Source: Candidatus Saccharimonadota bacterium (GTDB taxonomy: Bacteria > Patescibacteriota > Saccharimonadia > Saccharimonadales > Saccharimonadaceae). Taken from it: a DNA stretch of 64,000 bases. The stretch spans positions 1 through 64,000 of the forward strand of contig JAFWHC010000003.1 of the NCBI GenBank assembly GCA_017512095.1, in the 5' to 3' direction. Made by a program: the position numbers and the translations under genes. The notes below the pieces were generated by a model that saw nothing but the letters and a program-made list of their open reading frames with translations, had not been told where the DNA came from and searched no databases. Positions within the stretch are counted from its first letter, which is position 1; each line of letters begins with the position of its first letter. Below, piece after piece: positions 43,861 to 59,187 of this stretch.

Positions 43861-44799
43861 ATGTCCCGCTTCGATGAACAATATCTCGATTTATGTAATC
43901 GAATTCTTACCCATGGCGAAAAAATCACGACCGACCCCGCCGTCCTTAAGCGAAAGACCGGCGATAGAACCAAGACTAACATGCCGACTCATCTCGCGCA
44001 AACCGAAAAACCGACCACAACTTTCTCCCTCCCACATGAAGTCCTAACTTTCGACCTCGCCGAAGAATTCCCAATCCTAACAACCAAAAAAGTCGCCTTC
44101 AAAACCTCCGTTCTCGAAATGCTTTGGATTTATCAAGTCGCGTCAAATGACGTTTCTTGGCTTCATGACCGCGGGATTAAAATTTGGAACGAATGGGAAA
44201 TCCCCGCTTCCGGTCTTTATGCTGGCAAAGATTTTAAAAAACTCTATCAAAAAAAGGGAATTAAAGAAGACCCCGTCGGCACCATCGGCACAGCTTACGG
44301 CTGGATCGTAAGGCGCTATGGGCTCGTCGAAAGCCTAATCGAAACCATCAAAACCGACCCCGCCAATCGCCGCATGATTATGTCGCTCTGGCAAAACGAA
44401 TGGCTAGAAACGGCCGCTCTCCCAAGCTGCGTCTGGAACTCCCAATGGAACGTCACCGGCAAAAAATTAAACCTCATGGTTACCGTCCGCAGTAACGACG
44501 TCCCGCTCGGCATGCCTTTCAACGTCTCGCAATACGCCACTCTCTGTTACCTTCTCGCTCAGGTCACCGGCTTAAAACCTGGCAAGATGACTTATGTCAT
44601 CAACAACGCCCATATTTACGAAAACCAAATCGACGGCATCAAAGAACAAATGACTCGCGAATCTTTCAAAGCGCCAACTCTTTGGATTAATCCCGAGATA
44701 AAAGATTTTTATAAATTTGATAATTCCAAGGACCTAAAAGACATTCGCCTGGACAACTATCAAAACGCCGGCACGATTCGCATGCCGGTCACGGAGTAG
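43861..44799 (+). CDS. thyA: Thymidylate synthase
   Basis: A 312-residue ThyA that methylates dUMP to dTMP using methylene-tetrahydrofolate. The catalytic cysteine is in LPSCVWNSQW near residue 190 (usual form LPPCH). RSNDVPLGMPFNVSQYA and the folate/dUMP motif YVINNAHIYENQ are intact. The paired arginines are in DPANRRMIMSLW. It is followed after 56 nt by the DHFR-SHMT fusion, which regenerates its cofactor. A ThyX-like gene also exists at 58-59 kb. Confidence 0.96.
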   Translation: MSRFDEQYLDLCNRILTHGEKITTDPAVLKRKTGDRTKTNMPTHLAQTEKPTTTFSLPHEVLTFDLAEEFPILTTKKVAFKTSVLEMLWIYQVASNDVSWLHDRGIKIWNEWEIPASGLYAGKDFKKLYQKKGIKEDPVGTIGTAYGWIVRRYGLVESLIETIKTDPANRRMIMSLWQNEWLETAALPSCVWNSQWNVTGKKLNLMVTVRSNDVPLGMPFNVSQYATLCYLLAQVTGLKPGKMTYVINNAHIYENQIDGIKEQMTRESFKAPTLWINPEIKDFYKFDNSKDLKDIRLDNYQNAGTIRMPVTE

Positions 44800-44855
44800 G
44801 GATTATGATTTAACCTCGGGCTTTCTTGCCAAATCAACTTAAACGGAGCTTCAAA

Positions 44856-46727
44856 ATGTCATTTTCTCTCATCGCCTGCATCGGTAAAAACCGCGAACTC
44901 GGCAAAAATAACGACCTCATTTTTCATTTTAAAGAAGACATGAAATTCTTCCGCGAAACCACTCGGGGTCACACTGTGGTCATGGGGCGAAACACTTGGA
45001 CTTCTCTGGGCTGCAAACCTCTCCCCGGCCGCAAAAACCTCATCCTGTCCCACGAACCTTTGAAGAATCTTCCGAGCGGAGCGGTTCAGATTCCCGACGC
45101 TAAACAGTTCATTAAAGAACACAAAGATTCCCTCGAGGAAATTTTCATCATCGGCGGCGGCAAAATTTACGAACTTTTTCTCCCCTACGCAAGCAGCCTC
45201 TATCTTACCGAAGTCGAAGCCGAGGCAAAAGACGCCGACGTTTTCTTCCCAGAATTTAAGTTATTGGAGCGCGGGTGGAATCTCCGCAAAATCGCCACAT
45301 TTACAGATGAAAACGGCACAAATTTCACTATCAACAAATACACAAGAAAGGAAACCATGAACGACCCAGTTTTCACCCTCATAAGAAAAGAAGAAACTCG
45401 CCAAAAGGAAGGCCTAGAGCTTATTCCAAGCGAAAATTACGTTAGTAAAAATGTCTTGGAGGCCGCCGGCTCGGTCCTCACTAACAAATACTCCGAGGGC
45501 TATCCCAGCTTTGAAGGCATCGAAGGCGACGCGAAAACCTTTTGGAGTGAAGACGAAATCGCCTCGAAAAAACTCAGCAACTTCCGCTACTATGGCGGCC
45601 AAGACAACGTCGACAAAATCGAGCGCCTCGCCATCGCCCGGGCTTGTAAACTTTTCCATGCCGACCATGCTAATGTCCAGCCTCATTCTGGTGCAAATGC
45701 CAACGAGGCGGTTTACTGGGCTTGGTGTGAGCCGGGCGACACCATTCTCGCTATGTCTCTCCCCGCTGGTGGCCACCTCACTCACGGCGCTAAGGTCACT
45801 CGTTCCGCCCACATTTACAACTTCCTTGGCTATGGCGTCGACGAAACCGGCGACATTGACTATAAAGAACTCGAGCGTATTGCTCTTGAGGAGCAACCAA
45901 AAATCATTCTCGTTGGCTACTCCGCTTTCATGAAAATCCCAGACTTCGACCGCGTCGTCAAAATCGCTAAGAAAATCCCCGGCTGCCTCCTCATGGCCGA
46001 CATGGCGCACGTCGCCGGCCTCATTGCTGGCGGCGTCCATCCAAATCCCCTAGACCACGGTTTCCACGTTATGACCACGACGACCCATAAAACCCTTCGC
46101 GGCCCTCGCGGCGGTCTCATCCTTAGCAAGGGCGTCGTTTCTAGCCCTCTCAAAAAACCAGAACATACCTTAGAAAACATCCCGACCCTCATCGACCGCG
46201 CCGTTTTCCCAGGTACTCAAGGCGGACCTTTGGAGCACATCATCGCCGCTAAAGCCGTTGCTTTCGGTGAGGCTCTAAAGCCAGAGTTTAAGGCCTACGC
46301 AAAAAACATCGTTAAAAACGCGAAAGCTTTAGCGGAAGAACTGAAAAAACTCGGCTTCACGCTCCAGGGTGGAGGCACCGAAAACCATCTCATCCTCATT
46401 GACATGCAAAAATCCTGCGGCATTGACGGCAAGTTCTTCGAGCGTGCCCTCGACATGGTCGGTCTCAACTTAAACGCCAACTCTCTCCCGACCGATAAGG
46501 GTGCCGCCTTCCGCCCCTCTGGCGTTCGTCTTGGCACTCCCGCTATCACTACCCGTGGCCTCGGCGAGACAGAAATGAAACAACTCGCCGCCTGGCTCAA
46601 AAGAGTAGCCGACATCTGCGTCGGAGTTGGTGACGAAGCTCGCTTGGGCGACGCCAGTGACGAACTAAACAAAATCCGCGAAGAGGTCAAAACTCTCGCT
46701 AAAAAATTCCCAGTACCAGGAATCTAA
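44856..46727 (+). CDS. Dihydrofolate reductase-serine hydroxymethyltransferase fusion
   Basis: A 623-residue bifunctional protein. Residues 1-165 are DHFR: SLIACIGKNRELGKNNDLIFH, the HTVVMGRNTW motif, and IFIIGGGKIYELFLPYA. From residue 168 an SHMT begins with a typical start (FTLIRKEETRQKEGLELIPSENYVS). Its PLP lysine lies in TTTTHKTLRGPRGG. There is no stop between them. An internal ATG at 45357 has a weak SD (AAAGGA), so a free SHMT could also be made. The SHMT part, about 456 residues, has an insertion near DAKTFWSEDEIASKK. Start ATG 44856 is set by GGAG seven bases upstream. With ThyA it forms the whole thymidylate cycle. Confidence 0.9.
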   Translation: MSFSLIACIGKNRELGKNNDLIFHFKEDMKFFRETTRGHTVVMGRNTWTSLGCKPLPGRKNLILSHEPLKNLPSGAVQIPDAKQFIKEHKDSLEEIFIIGGGKIYELFLPYASSLYLTEVEAEAKDADVFFPEFKLLERGWNLRKIATFTDENGTNFTINKYTRKETMNDPVFTLIRKEETRQKEGLELIPSENYVSKNVLEAAGSVLTNKYSEGYPSFEGIEGDAKTFWSEDEIASKKLSNFRYYGGQDNVDKIERLAIARACKLFHADHANVQPHSGANANEAVYWAWCEPGDTILAMSLPAGGHLTHGAKVTRSAHIYNFLGYGVDETGDIDYKELERIALEEQPKIILVGYSAFMKIPDFDRVVKIAKKIPGCLLMADMAHVAGLIAGGVHPNPLDHGFHVMTTTTHKTLRGPRGGLILSKGVVSSPLKKPEHTLENIPTLIDRAVFPGTQGGPLEHIIAAKAVAFGEALKPEFKAYAKNIVKNAKALAEELKKLGFTLQGGGTENHLILIDMQKSCGIDGKFFERALDMVGLNLNANSLPTDKGAAFRPSGVRLGTPAITTRGLGETEMKQLAAWLKRVADICVGVGDEARLGDASDELNKIREEVKTLAKKFPVPGI

Positions 46728-46751: not shown

Positions 46752-46827
46752 GGGGTAGTAGCTCATCTGGTAGAGCGCAGCATTCGCATTGCTGAGGTGG
46801 TCGGTTCGAGCCCGATCTACTCCACCA
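46752..46827 (+). tRNA. tRNA-Ala (CGC)
   Basis: 76 nt. Acceptor GGGGTAG with CTACTCC, A73 and an encoded CCA. The anticodon loop TTCGCAT on stem CAGCA/TGCTG gives CGC, reading GCG. The T-loop is TTCGAGC. Confidence 0.96.
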
Positions 46828-46866: not shown

Positions 46867-46880
46867 CGAGATTTTTAAAT

Positions 46881-46909
46881 TTGCAAAATTTCCATCTTTA
46901 TGATAAAAT
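46881..46909 (+). promoter_or_regulatory. Promoter of methyltransferase-like gene 1
   Basis: TTGCAA (46881-46886), 17 nt, TAAAAT (46904-46909) preceded by TGA. The leader to ATG 47021 is about 105 nt. It holds GAAATCG/CGATTTT (46957-46963, 46981-46987), an internal AAGGAG, and a proximal SD GGGAGGG (47007-47013). Confidence 0.65.
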
Positions 46910-47020
46910 ATTTGCACCGTGTCGGAAAAAGCTGACAAGTAATTTAAAAAGGAGTGAAATCGTTTCATATTAATCTGTCGACGATTTTCTGGCACAAATA
47001 ATTTTTGGGAGGGAAACCTA

Positions 47021-48169
47021 ATGTTGTTCGGAAACACCAGTAACTGCTTCGACACCAAGATTGGCCCAAGAGAAGTCCCGTACTTAAACCTCAAGCCCAA
47101 CTCGTCCAGCACATATAGCTGGATGACGCGCAGCGCCATGATGTCTGACGACTATCGTTCCAACCAACACGTCGTCAGTGATGAGTTCGAAGACGGCCCC
47201 GCCCTCGTGGAGTCTATCCGTCGCCAGCTCGATGCGACTTGCCTTACGCTCTTCCCGCAGAACATGTTGGAAGACTACAAAGCAAGCCCGTTCCGTCAGA
47301 AGTTCCTGTCAAAGCTCGATAACCCGGGTTTCGTTAACTTCTGCCAGTTCTTCAAGGTTGCCGAAGACCCCGGTTTCATCTATTTTCTCTGGCATGCCTG
47401 GAACGGTGATCCCTGTCGCGCCAACGACGCTTTCCATGGTTTCTATTGGAAACCGGACGGAGATTGGAACATCTCGAAGCAGCATACTAGCTTTGAGCAC
47501 ATGATTAAAATCTCTGGGCTCGAAGAAACTGAACGCATCAAGGCCAAAGATTTTGTCAAACACATCGACTGGGTGTACGACAAGATTTACGACTTGTCGC
47601 ACGTAACATGGTTCGGCTCCGGCAACATGCCGGCCCGCCACTACAACCTGGCGCCTGCTTACTTCACGATTTTTGACCCCACCACGACATTGACGTCCGC
47701 GGATTTATTCGGTGACTTCGCCCAGCGCAACAACACGACCATCTATCGTGCAAGCTACGCCGAAGCCCTCAAACATCGCAATCTCGTCGAAGCGCAAAAC
47801 GCCGTGTCTCTCGAAGACCTCGCCGCGACGCTCAACGAGGACGAATTGGTCAACGCTCTTGTTATCGCTGCAAAACTGCTCCTGCGCCATGGTCGTGCTT
47901 ACTTTACGCTACCAATCGCAAACGAAGTATCGCACTGCCTCCGCGCAACGCTGGACTATCCTGCAGAGCCGCCAAAGTTCAACTTCGAAACCGTCGACCA
48001 GGCCGTAACCTACATTCAGCGCATCGTTCGCGCGGTAAATGAGCGGCTCAAGACGGAAAGCAAGCCCTGCTTCCTCACGATTGAGGATATTCGTTTGACT
48101 ACTGCCGGACCGTGGGGCGTCACTAACGTCCGCGTCTTCCTTGACAAGATTATCCCCGGAGTCGATTAA
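47021..48169 (+). CDS. Methyltransferase-like protein 1 of a paralogous pair
   Basis: A 382-residue soluble protein. I do not recognise a named family. Paralogy with the next protein is clear: FYFLWHAWNGD with FYWHAWHGD, EETERIKA with NNERIKI, FGSGNMPARHYNLAPA with LNSGGFPERHYGLPEA, and the ending WGVTNVRVFLDKI with WGATGVRFYLKKH. The glycine-bearing strand FGSGNMPARHY followed about 12 residues later by an acidic strand end (TIFDP) has the form of a class I SAM-methyltransferase motif I/II, probably degenerate; this is inference. No membrane segment. Monocistronic, with its own promoter, long leader and terminator; C-rich codons, like the next two genes. Confidence 0.65.
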   Translation: MLFGNTSNCFDTKIGPREVPYLNLKPNSSSTYSWMTRSAMMSDDYRSNQHVVSDEFEDGPALVESIRRQLDATCLTLFPQNMLEDYKASPFRQKFLSKLDNPGFVNFCQFFKVAEDPGFIYFLWHAWNGDPCRANDAFHGFYWKPDGDWNISKQHTSFEHMIKISGLEETERIKAKDFVKHIDWVYDKIYDLSHVTWFGSGNMPARHYNLAPAYFTIFDPTTTLTSADLFGDFAQRNNTTIYRASYAEALKHRNLVEAQNAVSLEDLAATLNEDELVNALVIAAKLLLRHGRAYFTLPIANEVSHCLRATLDYPAEPPKFNFETVDQAVTYIQRIVRAVNERLKTESKPCFLTIEDIRLTTAGPWGVTNVRVFLDKIIPGVD

Positions 48170-48178
48170 CTCCTACCT

Positions 48179-48210
48179 AGCCCCAAGCATTTCGCTTGGG
48201 GTTTTCTTTT
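48179..48210 (+). terminator. Terminator of methyltransferase-like gene 1
   Basis: CCCCAAGC-atttc-GCTTGGGG followed by TTTTCTTTT. Confidence 0.9.
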
Positions 48211-48224
48211 GTGCTTAAGATTGT

Positions 48225-48230
48225 TATAAT
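48225..48230 (+). promoter_or_regulatory. Extended -10 box of methyltransferase-like gene 2
   Basis: TGT-TATAAT, then a leader of about 80 nt to ATG 48320, with SD AAGGGGGAG (48307-48315). Confidence 0.65.
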
Positions 48231-48270
48231 GACATTATTATCCTATCGAGCCGTTCTGGCGCGCTAGAAT

Positions 48271-48300
48271 ATGCTCGTTACAAAAGGAGAGTGATACTCT
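48271..48300 (+). promoter_or_regulatory. Leader mini-ORF and hairpin before methyltransferase-like gene 2
   Basis: MLVTKGE then TGA (48271-48294), ending in the same codons GGA GAG TGA as the luxS mini-ORF. AGAGT-gat-ACTCT at 48288-48300 can fold over its end. Translation is not proven. Confidence 0.35.
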
Positions 48301-48319
48301 GACAGAAAGGGGGAGAAAT

Positions 48320-49474
48320 ATGTCCAACAAATTCGTGCTTTCCAACTACACTTTCGGAACAATCGGCACTTACCAAGAAATTCCCATCGACGCCCTGACC
48401 AATCCTGACCACGCTCTAACTCAAAGCCAAATCCACAGATTTGCCTCAATCCCAGCTAGTCTTAGCGAAAGCTTCAAAAATGGCTCCATTCCGCCTTCGA
48501 CTCATTTTTCCGACGGGCGCTGCTACATCGGCAAAGTAATGACCGATCTCGACCACACCTTCCTGCATGTTTTTACCGAGCTCAACAGGGAATACTTAAG
48601 AGAAGACAGTTTTCGCGATTTCTTCCGCAAGAAGCTCGAAGACCCCGGCGCACTTTATGTCGCGGTTTACTTTGACATCGCAAACGATCCGACTACCATT
48701 GCTTTCTATTGGCACGCTTGGCACGGCGACGTCGATAAATGCATGGATTTTTATCACAACCGCTGTTGGAGTCTCTACTACAAATGTGGCCCCGTCGATA
48801 AGTCGAGCGCATGGCATCATGTAAACACCATCGATGGCGTAGGCAATAACGAACGCATTAAAATCGCCGATTTCGTCACCCGTCTTCAGAAAACTGCCAA
48901 GGCATTAAATCGCCCGCTGAGAATCACCTGCCTCAATAGCGGCGGCTTTCCGGAGCGTCACTACGGTTTGCCCGAGGCCGACATGACCATCATCGGCAAT
49001 GAGAACGCGCCCCAGCTTAACCAACTGTTCCCAGATTCATCTGTTCGCAGTCGAGTTCGTTATATTCGTGACGACCTCTTAACAACAATCGAACATCCTG
49101 AATTGTTCGGCAGGCAAGATGTCGTCACTATGTTCGGCACTGTCGCCAGCTTTGGCGAGAAAAATGCCATTCAGATTATTTTGTTCGGCGTGGAACTACT
49201 TCATGATAAAGGCGTTATTGCCTTCGATTTACTCATCATGAACGAAAGTTTGCGTCGCCTTCTTTCGACCCGACTGGGGGCGCCGACTGAAGAACTAAGG
49301 GTTTTCGATTCCGCCGGCGAAGCTATGGCCGTCGGCATGGACATCGTCAACACCGCCAACGAACAGCTTGAACCCAGGCGCATTATCCTCACGGCTGAAC
49401 CGCCAATCGTCACTAAAGTCGGCGCCTGGGGTGCAACGGGTGTTCGCTTTTACCTCAAGAAACATGTTCTTTAA
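48320..49474 (+). CDS. Methyltransferase-like protein 2 of a paralogous pair
   Basis: A 384-residue paralogue of the preceding protein, with the same order of blocks: IAFYWHAWHGDVDKCMDFYHNRCW, NNERIKIADFVTRL, the motif I-like strand RITCLNSGGFPERHYGLPEAD followed by MTIIGNE, a helical region, IAFDLLIMNE and a final WGATGVRFYLKK. It lacks the classical GxGxG of active methyltransferases, so binding of SAM is uncertain. It has its own promoter and terminator. Together with the adenylating enzyme downstream it suggests a tailoring or biosynthetic function that I cannot name. Confidence 0.65.
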   Translation: MSNKFVLSNYTFGTIGTYQEIPIDALTNPDHALTQSQIHRFASIPASLSESFKNGSIPPSTHFSDGRCYIGKVMTDLDHTFLHVFTELNREYLREDSFRDFFRKKLEDPGALYVAVYFDIANDPTTIAFYWHAWHGDVDKCMDFYHNRCWSLYYKCGPVDKSSAWHHVNTIDGVGNNERIKIADFVTRLQKTAKALNRPLRITCLNSGGFPERHYGLPEADMTIIGNENAPQLNQLFPDSSVRSRVRYIRDDLLTTIEHPELFGRQDVVTMFGTVASFGEKNAIQIILFGVELLHDKGVIAFDLLIMNESLRRLLSTRLGAPTEELRVFDSAGEAMAVGMDIVNTANEQLEPRRIILTAEPPIVTKVGAWGATGVRFYLKKHVL

Positions 49475-49484
49475 AACTCTCCTT

Positions 49485-49511
49485 ACCTCAAGCTTTGGCT
49501 TGAGGTTTTTT
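49485..49511 (+). terminator. Terminator of methyltransferase-like gene 2
   Basis: ACCTCAAGC-tttg-GCTTGAGGT followed by TTTTT. Confidence 0.9.
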
Positions 49512-49536
49512 AATGGCTTTAATAGTAAAAATATGT

Positions 49537-49542
49537 TATAAT
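49537..49542 (+). promoter_or_regulatory. Extended -10 box of the ANL ligase gene
   Basis: TGT-TATAAT with a leader of about 60 nt and SD AAGGA (49595-49599). Confidence 0.62.
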
Positions 49543-49609
49543 TAGCGACGTTAAGGTTGGGCTAAAGTACATTAAGATTAGACTAGATTTACGAAAGGAA
49601 GTGATCCGT

Positions 49610-51295
49610 GTGCTCACTGGTTTCCCGTCTGTCGACAAGATTCATCTCAAAGATGTCCCAGAATCAAAACTCCACCCCAAGATTGAAACGGCGAGCCTGT
49701 TCGGCGCCTTCGAGGCCATTAACGCCGCATCTATGGATGACGGCAAGACCTTGATTGAGCGCTGTGGTCAAACCCTCACTAAGCGCGAATTCGAAGGCGA
49801 AGTTCTTGCGGTTTCCGCAGGGCTTATCAGTCTCGGGTTTACGCCGAAAGACACGCTCGTCATGTACACTCCGAACCTCATCGAAAGCATGGTCTTGACT
49901 TTTGCGGCTAATGCTATCGGCGTTAAAATCGCCTACGCAAATTTCTACAAGCCTCTCGACCACGCAATCGAGACCGCCAACGCGCATAAGGCCAAAATCT
50001 TGGTCGTCGCCAACCTGCAGGACGATGAACGTGATTCCGTCTTCGACCAGGTCGACTCGCTTCAGTTGATTCTTGACGTTGCGTCGTCAGAGGCCAACGA
50101 AGCAGAGAAACGTCGCCTGACTTACGGCGCACTGAAGAGCGCCGCGACGACTGTCGCTCCAGAGCTGGTTAAGCCAGTCATCATGTCCCAAATGACGTCC
50201 ACGTCCGAAGCGATTTTTCTACAAACCAGCGGTTCCACCGCCAACGTACCAAAAATCCTTCCGGCAACCAATCGGAACGTCATTGCTGCCCTCATCTACA
50301 TGACTAATGGCACAAACCAGACCACGAACGATGAAGTCCTCAAAAAGGGCCTGAGCATTTTGCCGTTTAACCATCCGTACGGCTGGATGATGATTGTCGC
50401 CAATATAATCGGTGGTAATCATATCGAACTCGTCCCAAGCGAGTCGCTCGAAAAGATCGGCGAATGGTATAAATATCAGGCAAACTTCATCTATGGTACG
50501 CCGCAAATTTTGCGCGAACTTATCGACAAAACTCCGGCTTCCGCCGACCTGTCTCCGCTTAAAGCGTTCTTCTCTGCCGGACTCAAAACCGAAGAAGAAC
50601 TGTTTAACCAAGCCGATTCATTCTTCCATGCCCATGGCTCAAACGCCGAAGTGCGTAACAACTATGGCATGGGTGAGACTCTCTGCATCGGCACCACGTC
50701 TGACGGTGTACCGCATCGCGCAGGAACCTGCGGCAAAGTTTACCCAGGGCTGGAGCTTTACATCGTCGACGAAGCCTTGAACGAAGTCAAATATGACGAA
50801 CCTGGCGAAATCCTCGTCTGGTCAGAGTCTACGGTAACGCACTACTTCGGCGACGATGAAGCAACCCAGAAATCGTTTATTACGTATCACGGCAAAACAT
50901 TTTTCCGCACTGGCGACATCGGCTCGCTTTCAACTGACAATTATCTGACCTTGCTTGGGCGTAAAAAACGCTTCTACCAGCCAAGGGGAGCATTCGACAA
51001 GGTCAATTGTGAAACGGTTGAAACCGCTCTCGATGCGCTCGACTCTGTCCGCGAAAATGCCGTTGCAATCTACACGCTGCCAGACGGTTCCGAATCTGGC
51101 GCGGCGTTCGTCGTGCTTGTCGACGGTGTACCGTCATCCAACGCAACGCGCGAGCGTATCCTCACTTCGCTCGGTGAATGTCTGCGCGCTTTCGAACTCC
51201 CCACGAAAATCGTTTTCGTGCGTCAGCTTCCGCTTCTTTCGTCTGGCAAAATCGACTATCCCAGCCTAACGGAAATCGCCAATCTCCTGGTCTAA
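49610..51295 (+). CDS. ANL-superfamily adenylating enzyme (acyl-CoA synthetase/NRPS A-domain like)
   Basis: A 561-residue AMP-forming ligase. The A3 phosphate loop reads LQTSGSTANVPK (A where G is usual). A5 is NNYGMGET, A7 is FRTGDIG, the hinge is LLGRKKRFYQPRG and the A10 lysine is in SSGKIDYPSL. It should activate a carboxylic acid as its adenylate. No carrier domain is attached and no phosphopantetheinyl transferase is nearby; the acceptor could be CoA or a small molecule. GTG 49610, 10 nt after the SD, is the probable start; GTG 49601 lies too close to the SD. It stands beside two methyltransferase-like paralogues. The substrate cannot be read from sequence. Confidence 0.85.
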   Translation: MLTGFPSVDKIHLKDVPESKLHPKIETASLFGAFEAINAASMDDGKTLIERCGQTLTKREFEGEVLAVSAGLISLGFTPKDTLVMYTPNLIESMVLTFAANAIGVKIAYANFYKPLDHAIETANAHKAKILVVANLQDDERDSVFDQVDSLQLILDVASSEANEAEKRRLTYGALKSAATTVAPELVKPVIMSQMTSTSEAIFLQTSGSTANVPKILPATNRNVIAALIYMTNGTNQTTNDEVLKKGLSILPFNHPYGWMMIVANIIGGNHIELVPSESLEKIGEWYKYQANFIYGTPQILRELIDKTPASADLSPLKAFFSAGLKTEEELFNQADSFFHAHGSNAEVRNNYGMGETLCIGTTSDGVPHRAGTCGKVYPGLELYIVDEALNEVKYDEPGEILVWSESTVTHYFGDDEATQKSFITYHGKTFFRTGDIGSLSTDNYLTLLGRKKRFYQPRGAFDKVNCETVETALDALDSVRENAVAIYTLPDGSESGAAFVVLVDGVPSSNATRERILTSLGECLRAFELPTKIVFVRQLPLLSSGKIDYPSLTEIANLLV

Positions 51296-51301
51296 TCCAA
51301 C

Positions 51302-51325
51302 AACCGCCCGAAATGGGCGGTTTTT
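51302..51325 (+). terminator. Terminator of the ANL ligase gene
   Basis: AACCGCCC-gaaat-GGGCGGTT followed by TTTTT. Confidence 0.9.
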
Positions 51326-51379: not shown

Positions 51380-52705
51380 ATGTTCTTAATTACGATTTTG
51401 CTTTATGCCGTAGCCGCCCTGACTATTTTGACCGGCATTTCAGTCCTCTGCGGCACAACTAAGCAGTCTCGACTTAAAGGTGCTTGGTTCGCCCTTGCTG
51501 CTCTAGGCACGGCGGTTTGGTCTGCGGCTATCGCTCTCTTTTTATCTCTCCCAGAGTCAAGTTCCAACATTGCTCCGCTCGTCGTCGTCGGCATCATTGC
51601 CGGCATCACCTTAACCGACGTTGCTCTCCTTGGTTACGCCAGTTGGGAAAATGGCCGCACCGGCAAATTGCTCACCTTAATTGGCGCGCTCGGTGGCATT
51701 TTCGTCGTTAGCGCTTTGGCTCTCCATCCAGAACTATTTTACAACGACATCACTTTCGGCAACGGTCTAAACACTATTCACACTGTCCGAACCTGGTACT
51801 TTTATTTCATAATCGGCTATTTCACTCTTGTCTCCGTTATTTATACAAACAGCATCACGAAAGGCGCTAAACACATCAAAGGTCGCGGCGCCAAGCTTGG
51901 CCTGAAGATTTTTCAGGCAGGACTCTCTCTCGGCGGCATTCTCGCACTGATATTCGACCTTCTTCTTCTAACCTCGCATCCTACTCTCGTTTGGATCGGC
52001 CCTATGGCGGTCTCTGTCACAATTGCCATCTTTTACTACTCCGTCGTCAAATATCGTATCCTCGCCCTCACTGGCGACTCGATGAAATTACTCTCCTATA
52101 TCATCGTCATTGCTATCGGCGCCATCGTTTACATCCTTCTCTTCTATCTCATTTTTACGGCCATCTTCCGAGTTGCTACTCCCTCGATAGAAATCCTAAT
52201 TCTCAATCTCATTATGGTTGCCATTGTCTTCTGCCTCATGCCCGCCATCTTCGAAGTTACCGCCATGATTAAAGCCTCTCTCCCCACAAAACAAATCGAC
52301 CTCGGCTACATTACTAAAAAGCTTCGCCGCCTTGATAAGCAAAACGTTGACTACAAAGAACTCGCCGGTTTTCTCGCGCAACACTTAAAGCTCGACTATT
52401 TTGGCTTTCTAATAAACGACCATCTCTACGGCTCTAAAAATATAACCCTCTCGGCCGAAGATTCCGCCGAATACAAAAAACTCAAAACACCAAAGTCAGG
52501 TATTTGGTATAGCTTCGACGAAGCTCGCACTGAGGAAGATGAAATCGCTCAAGTTGCAGCTCTGCTAAATGCTAAAGACGAACCTTCCGGAAAAATTCTG
52601 CTTGGCCGCCCAAACTCTCGTCATATTTTAACTAAACGCGAATTAATCGAAGTCGAAATGGTCTTGCGACTCGCCGGCGTCATCATTGATGGAGACAAAA
52701 TCTAA
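51380..52705 (+). CDS. Polytopic membrane protein with histidine-kinase-like sensor half, no kinase
   Basis: A 441-residue protein. Eight hydrophobic segments (residues 1-300) resemble the N-terminal sensor half of membrane histidine kinases (the HIHTVRTWYFYFI-like region and FYYSVVKYRI near the end of the bundle, just before the cytosolic part). The remaining 140 residues contain a GAF-like or coiled region (IDLGYITKKLRRLDKQNVDYKELAGFLAQ) but no H-box, N-box or G-box. It may be a receptor that signals through protein contact, or a remnant of a kinase. The stop is joined to the CAP-domain gene as TAATG, so both are co-translated. Confidence 0.7.
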   Translation: MFLITILLYAVAALTILTGISVLCGTTKQSRLKGAWFALAALGTAVWSAAIALFLSLPESSSNIAPLVVVGIIAGITLTDVALLGYASWENGRTGKLLTLIGALGGIFVVSALALHPELFYNDITFGNGLNTIHTVRTWYFYFIIGYFTLVSVIYTNSITKGAKHIKGRGAKLGLKIFQAGLSLGGILALIFDLLLLTSHPTLVWIGPMAVSVTIAIFYYSVVKYRILALTGDSMKLLSYIIVIAIGAIVYILLFYLIFTAIFRVATPSIEILILNLIMVAIVFCLMPAIFEVTAMIKASLPTKQIDLGYITKKLRRLDKQNVDYKELAGFLAQHLKLDYFGFLINDHLYGSKNITLSAEDSAEYKKLKTPKSGIWYSFDEARTEEDEIAQVAALLNAKDEPSGKILLGRPNSRHILTKRELIEVEMVLRLAGVIIDGDKI

Positions 52706-53664
52706 TGACCGCCGCCGCTGCCACACTTAAACAGACGCGGATGACAATTTTACTTTCGCTCAATGCGGCAGCTATTTTGATTGCTGGAGTTTTGATTGCC
52801 AGGTCTATTTCTGGTGAAGGCCTGGAATTTCGCGCCGTCAATGAACGCTCCGACGAAATCGCCGAAAGCCCAGAAGAAGTCGCACTTTTAAAGTCTGTTT
52901 CCGATTCTTCTGCCGGCAAGACCATCGCCAGTGCTGACGGCACAGTTTACCAAGTCGCCGCCAACGGCTGGATCTCTTCCGACCCCGTGCCAAACGGTGA
53001 GCTTTGGAACGAAACATCAATCACTATCTATCAGACCGCCGACATCGACATCTGTGTTGGCGGCAACCTTTCCGGTCTCGGCTCAATGTACTGGCAGTCC
53101 TCCGACCAAAATGTCATTTCCGGTTTCTACTCAACTGCGCGCACGTGGCTCGGTTATTCATCAGACATTTGCCGCTATCCCATCATCAAAAACCCTGGCA
53201 CCACCACTATCACCGCCGGCACCTATGACGGCCGACGCCATGACTCAATCACCGTCACGGTTGTCGAAGTCCCGGTCGAGCAGTGGAAACGTGAGGTCCT
53301 TACTCTCGTAAACCAGGAACGTACTAAAAATGGTCTAGAAAGCCTTGAATGGGGCGTTACTTGCGAGGCGGCTGCCGCAATTCGTGCTCGCGAGCTCATG
53401 CATAGCTACTCGCACACTCGCCCCGATGGCTCATCGTGGGAAACTGCCTGCCCGCTCCCCGACACTGGAGGTAGCAGCGGAGAAAACCTCATGGCGGGCA
53501 ATGCTGCTGTCTCCCCAGCAACAGTCGTCAATGCCTGGATGAACTCCCCCGATCATCGCGCCAACATCCTCAGCCCTAACTTTACCAAACTCGCCGTCGG
53601 TTTTGTCTTTGACCCAGAAGCACAATATAAAACTTATTGGTCCGAATTCTTCTCAACTTACTAG
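52705..53664 (+). CDS. Membrane-anchored CAP (SCP/PR1)-domain protein
   Basis: A 319-residue exported protein. One N-terminal membrane helix (about residues 12-32) precedes an all-beta, cysteine-bearing region (70-195). A C-terminal CAP domain (about 200-319) has VNQERTKNGLESLEW, IRARELMHSYSHTRPDG, SGENLMAG and the hallmark AWMNSPDHRANIL. CAP proteins are secreted and bind sterols, lipids or metals, or act as proteases in some cases; in epibionts they may touch the host. The gene overlaps the sensor-like gene by one base and converges with the next. Confidence 0.85.
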   Translation: MTAAAATLKQTRMTILLSLNAAAILIAGVLIARSISGEGLEFRAVNERSDEIAESPEEVALLKSVSDSSAGKTIASADGTVYQVAANGWISSDPVPNGELWNETSITIYQTADIDICVGGNLSGLGSMYWQSSDQNVISGFYSTARTWLGYSSDICRYPIIKNPGTTTITAGTYDGRRHDSITVTVVEVPVEQWKREVLTLVNQERTKNGLESLEWGVTCEAAAAIRARELMHSYSHTRPDGSSWETACPLPDTGGSSGENLMAGNAAVSPATVVNAWMNSPDHRANILSPNFTKLAVGFVFDPEAQYKTYWSEFFSTY

Positions 53665-57992: not shown

Positions 57993-59159
57993 TTAAATTT
58001 TGCGGTCAAATGCATGTTCCTGACCAAGCGGACACGGACGATAGCAAATCTGCTCCGTAAACTGGCACTTGGTCTTGTCCTTGATCGGGTAAAGCATCTT
58101 AAAGACCTCCGTCTCGCCATTTTCAACCACGGCAGAGATATAGCGGTCGAGTGTCGCCTTTGTTTGCTGGCAAATTTCCAGCTGCGCCGCTCCGCAAAGT
58201 CGCTCCGAACACTTCGACATTAAGAAGTTTTCTGGCGTTCCGCGCTCGTTAATTCCAACGAGCATCCCCTGCGGATAGTTTTCCTTCACTGCCCTCATGT
58301 CGCTAAGATATTCACGCTCCCACTGCGTCCCGCGAATAATCGGCGGCACAAAGAACCCCGCTCTATGCGGCTCCACAACGGTCATCTCATAGTCAATCGA
58401 ACGATGCCTCTGCGCCTGCGCAAGCTGCGCAAAACTCCCGGTATAGTTCACCGAATAGACCTCGCCAAAGTATTCGCTCCGTCTTCTCGACGCAAACAGC
58501 GACAAAGTGCGCCCCTTCCGGTCGCGCATCTGTTCGCAGTTCATTACCGAGCGGAGCACTTTTGCCGTCTCAAGGAGCCACGGTGTTAGCTTTCGCCAGA
58601 ACGAATCACTGTCGGCTATCTCGCAATACCCCGCATATTCCTCCAGAAAGCCAATCAAATAATTACCCTGCCGGAAATCTACGGTGTATTCCATTATGGT
58701 TGACGGTGTAAAAACGGAGATAAAATATCTCGCATTTTCCTGCGCCAACTTGAGCCGAACTTTCTCGTCGATCTGCGGATAGACGGCCGTGATTGCCACC
58801 TGAAAAAGATCTAACCATTTCGCATAAAGTCGTTCTTCATCTCCCGACAATGCCATCTGCGTATATCTCGCCGACTTCTCGGAAGTGCAATAGTCTTTCT
58901 CGTTGTTCAAAATCATCGCAATAATCTTCGGCACACCAGAAAGCAGCAGATTGTAGCTCGTATGCCCTGCCACGCTATGATGACCAGAGCCTGCCGTCTG
59001 CGCAAACCGCTTCAAAGACTTTTCCTCTGGCTCCTTTGCAATCGTGTCGAAATCGTCCTTCATATAACAAATCCCCGCAGATTGTCCGGCGAAGATTTTC
59101 GCCTCCTCAACTGGAAGCTGGTAGTCTGGACAGGTCGACGCCAACACTCGAACATCCAT
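57993..59159 (-). CDS. Long ThyX-like (FAD-dependent thymidylate synthase family) protein
   Basis: A 388-residue protein with two ThyX-like halves. The C-terminal half holds QAQRHRSIDYEMTV, which resembles the ThyX signature RHRx7S, and ERLCGAAQLEICQQTKATL. The N-terminal half has GSGHHSVAGHTSYNLLLSGV, like the ThyX GH-S-EH stretch. Classical ThyX is about 220-250 residues; long forms occur in some bacteria. A thyA gene is also present in this window, so the role may be something other than bulk dTMP synthesis. ATG 59159 is chosen since GAGAGGTG lies 6-8 nt upstream; a GTG at 59168 lies within that SD. Confidence 0.75.
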   Translation of the reverse strand: MDVRVLASTCPDYQLPVEEAKIFAGQSAGICYMKDDFDTIAKEPEEKSLKRFAQTAGSGHHSVAGHTSYNLLLSGVPKIIAMILNNEKDYCTSEKSARYTQMALSGDEERLYAKWLDLFQVAITAVYPQIDEKVRLKLAQENARYFISVFTPSTIMEYTVDFRQGNYLIGFLEEYAGYCEIADSDSFWRKLTPWLLETAKVLRSVMNCEQMRDRKGRTLSLFASRRRSEYFGEVYSVNYTGSFAQLAQAQRHRSIDYEMTVVEPHRAGFFVPPIIRGTQWEREYLSDMRAVKENYPQGMLVGINERGTPENFLMSKCSERLCGAAQLEICQQTKATLDRYISAVVENGETEVFKMLYPIKDKTKCQFTEQICYRPCPLGQEHAFDRKI

Positions 59160-59187
59160 CGAATTCACCTCTCAAATTGTAAAAATT

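Follow-up and report, generated by a model that had tools for sequence, protein, structure and literature searches.

An enzyme gene beside a seven-transmembrane sensor gene in Patescibacteria: a candidate signalling unit and its variant in a reduced Saccharimonadaceae genome

In Ralstonia, one operon is described that holds phcB, which encodes an S-adenosylmethionine (SAM) methyltransferase, together with phcS, whose product is a sensor histidine kinase of the membrane. The signal made by PhcB, methyl 3-hydroxymyristate or methyl 3-hydroxypalmitate, is sensed by PhcS (PMC8578825, PMC10576176, PMC11960443, PMC6989110, PMC9102662). Ralstonia strains are reported to be of two signal types, told apart by the sequences of PhcB and PhcS (PMC11960443). 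A quorum-sensing survey of the Candidate Phyla Radiation (CPR) lists RpfB homologues in CPR genomes; its main text contains none of the words methyltransferase, PhcB and 7TM (PMC7567580). Patescibacteria are mostly uncultured, have tiny genomes and live on other cells. The subject here is a stretch of 64,000 nucleotides (the window) from contig JAFWHC010000003.1 of a Saccharimonadaceae genome (GCA_017512095.1), in which two methyltransferase-fold genes and a gene for an adenylating enzyme of the ANL superfamily precede the gene for a seven-transmembrane (7TM) sensor protein. The genome is indeed reduced, as a first-pass annotation of the window had supposed (624,889 bases in 8 contigs, 92.5% complete).

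On balance, the region is probably one version, specific to its lineage, of a signalling unit of two genes that occurs across Patescibacteria, in which a small-molecule-modifying enzyme, normally a PF12147-like SAM methyltransferase, is encoded directly upstream of a 7TM sensor that would answer its product. The genes concerned, numbered on the forward strand of the window, are as follows, with the basis of each assignment in brackets (ORF, open reading frame; MT, methyltransferase).

47021..48169, + strand: MT1 (P0001), methyltransferase-fold protein of 382 residues, a degenerate copy (ORF, homology, family alignment)
48320..49474, + strand: MT2 (P0002), methyltransferase-fold protein of 384 residues (ORF, AlphaFold2 model, structure matches, family alignment)
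49610..51295, + strand: ANL-superfamily adenylating enzyme (P0003) of 561 residues (ORF, Pfam, motif alignment)
51380..52705, + strand: 7TM sensor protein of 441 residues with a GAF-like cytoplasmic domain and no kinase domain (model, Pfam matches of relatives, profiles)
52705..53664, + strand: membrane-anchored CAP/SCP-domain protein (ORF list, Pfam)

The first-pass annotation had singled out the interval 46881-51325, which does contain three genes of the sizes it gave (ORFs of 382, 384 and 561 residues). This observation is confirmed; the interval ends one gene before the conserved partner, which starts at 51380. The interpretation placed on the genes is partly supported. That they make or modify a signal gains support from the pairing with the sensor, but the proposal of a three-gene pathway, for which co-occurrence of the genes in other genomes had been named as the test, fails: an MT and a close ANL relative stand at one locus in only 1 of the 174 genomes of the genus, the window's own. 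MT1, MT2 and the ANL are adjacent on the same strand in that one genome, yet a single biosynthetic pathway made of these three enzymes, a reading already weakened, was rejected on this count and is very improbable.

The association that does recur in the genus is that of an enzyme with the sensor. The MT profile matches 56 of the 174 genomes, and the 7TM gene (about 450 residues, shorter forms included) is present in 136. At least 98 long, GAF-bearing copies of the 7TM gene occur in 86 genomes, and neighbourhoods were taken for nearly all of them, perhaps not quite all, with overlapping loci counted once. Among the matches listed, an MT or ANL gene lies within 6 kb of 85 of the 98 GAF-bearing 7TM genes, and directly upstream on the same strand in 51 of the 98, at a median gap of 96 bp. 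The first 40 loci were chosen through an MT or ANL gene; because the later ones were mostly chosen through the 7TM gene, the count of 85 is close to a census and not a biased sample.

The enzyme beside the sensor may be of either class. The ANL subfamily of P0003 occurs in 19 of the 174 genomes, where it is set apart by score (387 bits or more, with the next match at 307), and in 18 of the 19 a 7TM gene stands no more than 6 kb away from it; in 17, the ANL gene is directly upstream of the 7TM gene (13 long and 4 short sensors). Two genomes, G129 and G130, have both an MT and an ANL, on different contigs and with different sensors. In two others, G002 and G150, the ANL-7TM pair is on another contig and the CAP gene and an MT fragment remain beside glyA, arguing that the ANL and the sensor moved together. 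On a tree of 110 sensors, 18 ANL-linked rows group in a single clade (support 100) that is nested among the MT-linked ones, and two further ANL-linked rows lie elsewhere (G155 and a long-branched second copy of G136). The window falls within the ANL clade and is the only row there with both an MT and an ANL. In this clade, the ANL has replaced the enzyme beside the sensor.

A functional link between the GAF-like part of the sensor and the enzyme was also considered. None of the 47 genomes with GAF-less sensors has an MT or a close ANL, a count that is not independent evidence; a test by independent pairs gave no informative pair. On the tree, most enzyme-free sensors belong to a single clade, which has GAF-bearing members too, and some ANL-linked sensors are without the GAF-like part; this candidate link is weakened accordingly.

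The adjacency of MT and sensor is conserved at the depths of genus, order and phylum, and the pairing is old. Order-level loci were picked by sensor similarity alone, and one locus with a 471-residue sensor (L214) was left out of the resulting set of 31 kinases. An MT of 325-530 residues lies directly upstream of 26 of these 31 kinases on the same strand, at gaps of -38 to 90 bp, five of which are -4. All nine of the upstream proteins scanned match methyltransferase families (E <= 0.02), with PF12147 over its cut-off in four. The phylum was approached from the other side: the profile of MTs from outside the genus (outside MTs) matches 55 of 286 sampled genomes, and loci were picked by MT similarity alone, comprising 12 of the 14 matches beyond the order with E <= 1e-10 (G547 and G590 were left out). 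At all 12, the next gene on the same strand encodes a 7TM histidine kinase; at one of them (L259), an ORF of 83 residues on the opposite strand lies between. Pfam recognizes HisKA_7TM, HisKA and HATPase_c in each of the five kinases scanned and methyltransferase families in each of the five enzymes scanned, four of which exceed the PF12147 cut-off, so that over order and phylum together 8 of the 14 outside MTs scanned do so. Judged by profile comparison with hhalign, the MTs of the genus and the outside MTs are homologous (probability 98.2% with E 3.6e-14; all six control comparisons stayed below 1%). Against the sequences of the PDB, the second-best match of the outside-MT profile is 3ocj (E 2e-4). 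Plasmid records hold two weak matches to an outside MT (in Fusobacterium and Sinorhizobium), neither of which adjoins a gene recognized by the kinase profile.

The sensor of the window is modelled as seven helices, two more hydrophobic helices and a mixed C-terminal domain that is GAF-like. The best Foldseek matches of the model are G-protein-coupled receptors (E 7e-4, root-mean-square deviation (rmsd) mostly 5-10), a result taken only as indicating a 7TM bundle. The protein itself has no Pfam match; HisKA_7TM (PF16927) exceeds its cut-off of 28.6 in two of the four genus relatives scanned (36 and 48 bits), and at the profile level the N-terminal region of the window protein resembles HisKA_7TM kinases from outside the genus. 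These outside relatives are mostly frames of about 700-760 residues, and the one scanned consists of HisKA_7TM, a weak GAF, HisKA and HATPase_c; the last two domains are absent from the 441-residue window protein. Since the longer relatives outside the genus carry kinase domains, the window protein would be a relative of sensor histidine kinases that has lost its kinase. The window genome has five HATPase_c matches, none of them linked to the sensor.

Some neighbours and variants of the 7TM genes were recorded in passing. Three neighbouring genes (c9, c10 and c12) that had been considered as two-component genes are in fact Cthe_2159, DUF4956 and VTC domain proteins, with no sensor kinase or regulator among them; a row of VTC, DUF4956 and Cthe_2159 genes lies directly upstream of enzyme-free 7TM-CAP pairs (L168-L173, L153, L180). 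In several MT-linked genomes, the gene directly downstream of the 7TM gene is carbohydrate phosphorylase-like, as at L084:11624-13423 (PF00343, 67 bits). Cluster c16, taken to be the same as the phosphorylase-like cluster c6, is downstream of the 7TM gene in 11 of the 98 cases among the matches listed. Seven 7TM matches (G139, G027, G135, G122, G112, G136 and G114) contain a single in-frame stop, TGA in G114 and TAG in the others, across which the search continues the match.

How the enzyme and the parts of the sensor have diverged was compared over 50 of the 51 eligible loci of the genus, with the window left out. MT identity (median 20%) follows that of the membrane part of the sensor (Spearman rho 0.63, Mantel p 0.001, n=50), and the correlation is 0.60 given CAP and 0.60 given the GAF part. 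A fast-evolving enzyme that tracks the probably ligand-facing part of a sensor, and that can be replaced by an unrelated enzyme, resembles a signal synthase with its receptor. The same numbers bear on another possibility, namely that a CheR-like MT methylates the sensor, or its GAF part or linker, in order to tune it, with no diffusible signal involved. Direct adjacency of the genes, often with translational coupling, would suit such receptor adaptation, as would the weak CheR matches (PF01739; E 0.15, 0.3 and 0.006) in 3 of the 14 outside MTs scanned. However, MT divergence tracks the membrane domain of the sensor rather than its cytoplasmic GAF part (rho 0.63 vs 0.27, the latter becoming -0.14 given the membrane part), several phylum-level sensors have no GAF segment, and in 17 genomes the place of the MT is taken by an ANL, an enzyme incapable of methylating a receptor. 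Adaptation of the receptor is improbable.

The CAP gene raises a different alternative. It lies directly downstream of 65 of the 98 long 7TM genes among the matches listed, at a median gap of 2 bp, and might act outside the cell in a system for envelope homeostasis, in which the MT or ANL would modify a membrane lipid or a host fatty acid and the 7TM protein would read the state of the membrane, with no signal passing between cells. No acyl carrier protein match was found in the window genome, so that acids would come from outside, probably from hosts or food. Against this, the divergence of CAP is unrelated to that of the MT once the membrane part of the 7TM protein is accounted for (rho 0.23, falling to 0.04), and there is no match to the CAP profile in order loci L215-L223 or phylum loci L248-L259. 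MT and sensor also diversify quickly, which would be unusual for lipid housekeeping. We regard envelope homeostasis as unlikely, although a little less so than receptor adaptation, and prefer the synthase-receptor unit to both.

The identity of the enzymes is clearest for their folds and families. The first-pass annotation called MT1 and MT2 homologous, methyltransferase-like and of no family it knew. All of this was fair: the two proteins are 29% identical over 366 columns (E 6e-44), neither has a Pfam or NCBIfam match at E <= 1, and the likeness to methyltransferases is borne out by the model and by conserved positions of the SAM site across the family. The AlphaFold2 model of P0002 (mean predicted local distance difference test score 89.8) aligns with 1000 of 1000 chains of solved structures at Z >= 8, the listed rows being methyltransferases or methyltransferase-fold proteins. 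The best is PDB 3ocj from Bordetella parapertussis (Z 18.2, rmsd 4.1, 257 residues aligned; the next has Z 16.7). On this model, the MT1/MT2 family has the class I SAM-dependent methyltransferase fold, joined to a helical N-terminal domain of its own kind. In the alignment of 72 full-length members (MT2 numbering), the motif-I glycine G208 is kept in 65 rows (92%), and position 226, at the end of strand 2, is D or E in 67 of 70 rows; MT1 retains this acidic residue. The genus MT profile finds one weak methyltransferase match among PDB sequences (E 0.005), and SAM synthetase is present in the window genome. The six named relatives of the family come from metagenome-assembled contigs of 'Candidatus Saccharibacteria', and the gut of goat, sheep and roe deer is the source of four of them. 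A phage origin of MT2 was considered and dropped, no match being found in viral contigs or phage records.

P0003 belongs to the ANL superfamily, as had been recognized from its motifs. It matches AMP-binding (PF00501, 143 bits) and AMP-binding_C (PF13193, 29 bits), and its YGxGE, RTGD and SSGK (K547) motifs align with those of four near relatives. We take these motifs and the phosphate loop to correspond to the P-loop, A5/A7 motifs and C-terminal catalytic lysine of the superfamily. The phosphate loop TSGSTANVPK is as unusual as the first-pass annotation held: the same four relatives have TSGSTSGKPK, TSGSSSGKPK, TSGSTS-IPK and SSGYMTGEEK, so that the change is particular to P0003. The protein fails the NCBIfam equivalog cut-offs (best NF004837, 149 bits vs 476), which therefore do not place it among the CoA ligases of known substrate.

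Several observations weigh against the proposed signalling unit. No enzyme is found near 13 of the 98 long 7TM genes among the matches listed, and 6 of these 13 group with 7 GAF-less copies from the sample in one clade free of the enzyme; the GAF-like part is not obligatory, being absent from four ANL-linked sensors. At the order level, 5 of the 31 kinases have another gene upstream, locus L214 (genome G354, of the same family) has its 471-residue sensor and a CAP gene without an MT, and the correlation of MT with membrane domain over 26 pairs is weak and not significant (rho 0.155, p 0.074), even though the membrane part varies as much there as the MT does (median identities 26% and 25%) and the kinase does not (57%). 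Co-divergence can also arise from adjacency and linked inheritance. The window genes have promoters of their own and do not form one operon, and the gap in the genus is usually about 96 bp. The kinase part is gone from the genus sensors, and no kinase or regulator was found to partner them. Finally, both window MTs look impaired: MT2 has G at position 226 in place of the strand-2 acid, and MT1 carries D instead of G273, which 67 of 71 family rows keep, and T instead of D303, kept in 65 of 72. Their membership of the fold stands, but their activity is doubtful, and they may be inactive or relaxing.

It is nearly an even call, leaning slightly to the negative, that both MTs of the window are pseudo-enzymes or decaying leftovers and that only the ANL and the 7TM protein (with CAP) still work. 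Besides the lost residues, a third copy, even further degenerated, is present on a different contig of the window genome (G000:C1), and G002 and G150, from the same clade, retain only N-terminal MT pieces of 194-204 residues. On the other hand, both window ORFs are full length with no frameshifts, and the N-terminal pieces are conserved between genomes, so that some part may function. Decay of the two MTs is compatible with the signalling unit as proposed.

Other incomplete members of the MT family were noted. The degenerate paralogues at G000:C1:42454-43470 (L093) and G059:C17:48725-49717 (L091) share their position and several neighbours, and there is no 7TM gene in the stretches fetched around them. 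Proteins of 192-204 residues that consist of the helical N-terminal domain only occur at L110:9139-9723, L117:9835-10449 and L014:1303-1881 (in G002, G150 and G059), and in the full sequences of two of them, from L010 (the same gene as that of L110) and L014, the C-terminal ends are alike as well. A separate use of this domain is possible.

The signalling unit could have worked and changed as follows. An ancestral SAM methyltransferase resembling PF12147 would make a signal that is methylated and probably lipophilic, such as a fatty-acid methyl ester. After export, this signal would be bound by the membrane domain of an ancestral HisKA_7TM-(GAF)-HisKA-HATPase_c sensor, which would then phosphorylate a response regulator. 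In the genus of the window, the sensor has lost HisKA and HATPase_c and kept the 7TM and GAF parts; with the kinase lost, the signal must pass via another protein. In the clade of the window, the ANL ligase has taken the enzyme position, its product presumably being a CoA ester or an adenylate-derived compound, and an acid that is adenylated, or its CoA ester, would now give rise to the signal. Both MT copies of the window, having lost conserved SAM-site residues, may be relaxing or acting as binding proteins.

More tentatively, the unit may belong to a phylum-wide and undescribed chemical language, in which an MT and a 7TM kinase form a synthase-receptor pair that diversifies fast by species, in which one ruminant-gut genus has a kinase-free receptor, and in which one clade has swapped the MT for an acid-adenylating ligase; this larger proposal is possible, with the balance somewhat against it. 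In the open-access literature, no description of an MT-7TM-kinase pair in Patescibacteria or Saccharibacteria was found, nor a mention of PF12147 there. A conserved enzyme-sensor unit that survives genome reduction offers a concrete candidate, open to test, for communication by small molecules in Patescibacteria, and, if the interpretation is right, the swap of enzyme class beside the same receptor would be a natural experiment on the change of molecule in a signal system.

The remaining features of the window concern the expression of these genes and their surroundings. Three sites were placed by the scans:

46880..46909, + strand: promoter-like site 5' of the MT1 gene, with an extended -10 (TG.TAAAAT; 9/12 matches)
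48179..48203, + strand: terminator-like hairpin 3' of MT1 (terminator scan)
49485..49506, + strand: terminator-like hairpin 3' of MT2 (terminator scan)

The first-pass annotation gave each of the three enzyme genes its own extended -10 and hairpin terminator, and these can be read directly: TGnTATAAT or TGnTAAAAT boxes lie 5' of the MT1, MT2 and ANL genes, and G+C-rich hairpins with T-tails lie 3' of each. The scans alone do not rise above chance, with 4 promoter-like sites vs 3.7 expected and 8 terminators vs 5.9 +/- 2.8 expected, neither an excess over shuffled sequence; the signals are convincing by their placement, not by their number. P0003 starts with GTG at 49610, with a further in-frame GTG at 49601, and the ATG of the CAP gene overlaps the stop codon of the 7TM gene (TAATG). 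Among RNA families, tRNA alone was matched near the window genes, a tRNA-Ala with anticodon CGC (46752-46827, + strand) directly 5' of MT1. Upstream of it, positions 44826-46727 (+ strand) hold a single ORF of 633 residues, which we read as an in-frame fusion of two parts, one like dihydrofolate reductase and the other like serine hydroxymethyltransferase; the relatives at L096, L110, L111, L116 and L117 have two ORFs, of about 160-170 and 456 residues. A 391-residue protein at 57993-59168 (- strand) has a weak Thy1/ThyX match (PF02511, 42 bits), and ThyA is also present at 43861-44799.

The locus can be set beside four described groups. PF12147, 'Putative methyltransferase', with structure 3ocj, is like the enzymes here in providing the top structure match of MT2 and in recognizing many of the outside MTs, but the window MTs match no Pfam family and have an N-terminal domain of their own. 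The HisKA_7TM kinases (PF16927) share HisKA_7TM, HisKA and HATPase_c with the order-level (1/1) and phylum-level (5/5) sensors scanned, whereas the window protein ends after its GAF-like part. The diffusible signal factor system (RpfB/RpfF-RpfC) is alike in that it combines a membrane sensor with an ANL enzyme, RpfB being an acyl-CoA ligase; no RpfF was seen at the loci studied here, in which no search was aimed at it. The nearest known case by logic appears to be PhcB-PhcS of Ralstonia, to which the loci are likened by gene arrangement and not by sequence: an MT gene stands beside a membrane sensor kinase gene in 26 of 31 cases in the order and 12 of 12 in the phylum. No neighbour resembling PhcR, PhcQ or PhcA was recognized at the MT-sensor loci, for which no systematic search was made. 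In contrast to the Phc system, the sensors at the loci studied here are HisKA_7TM-(GAF) proteins, that of the window has no kinase, and in its genus an ANL can take the place of the enzyme.

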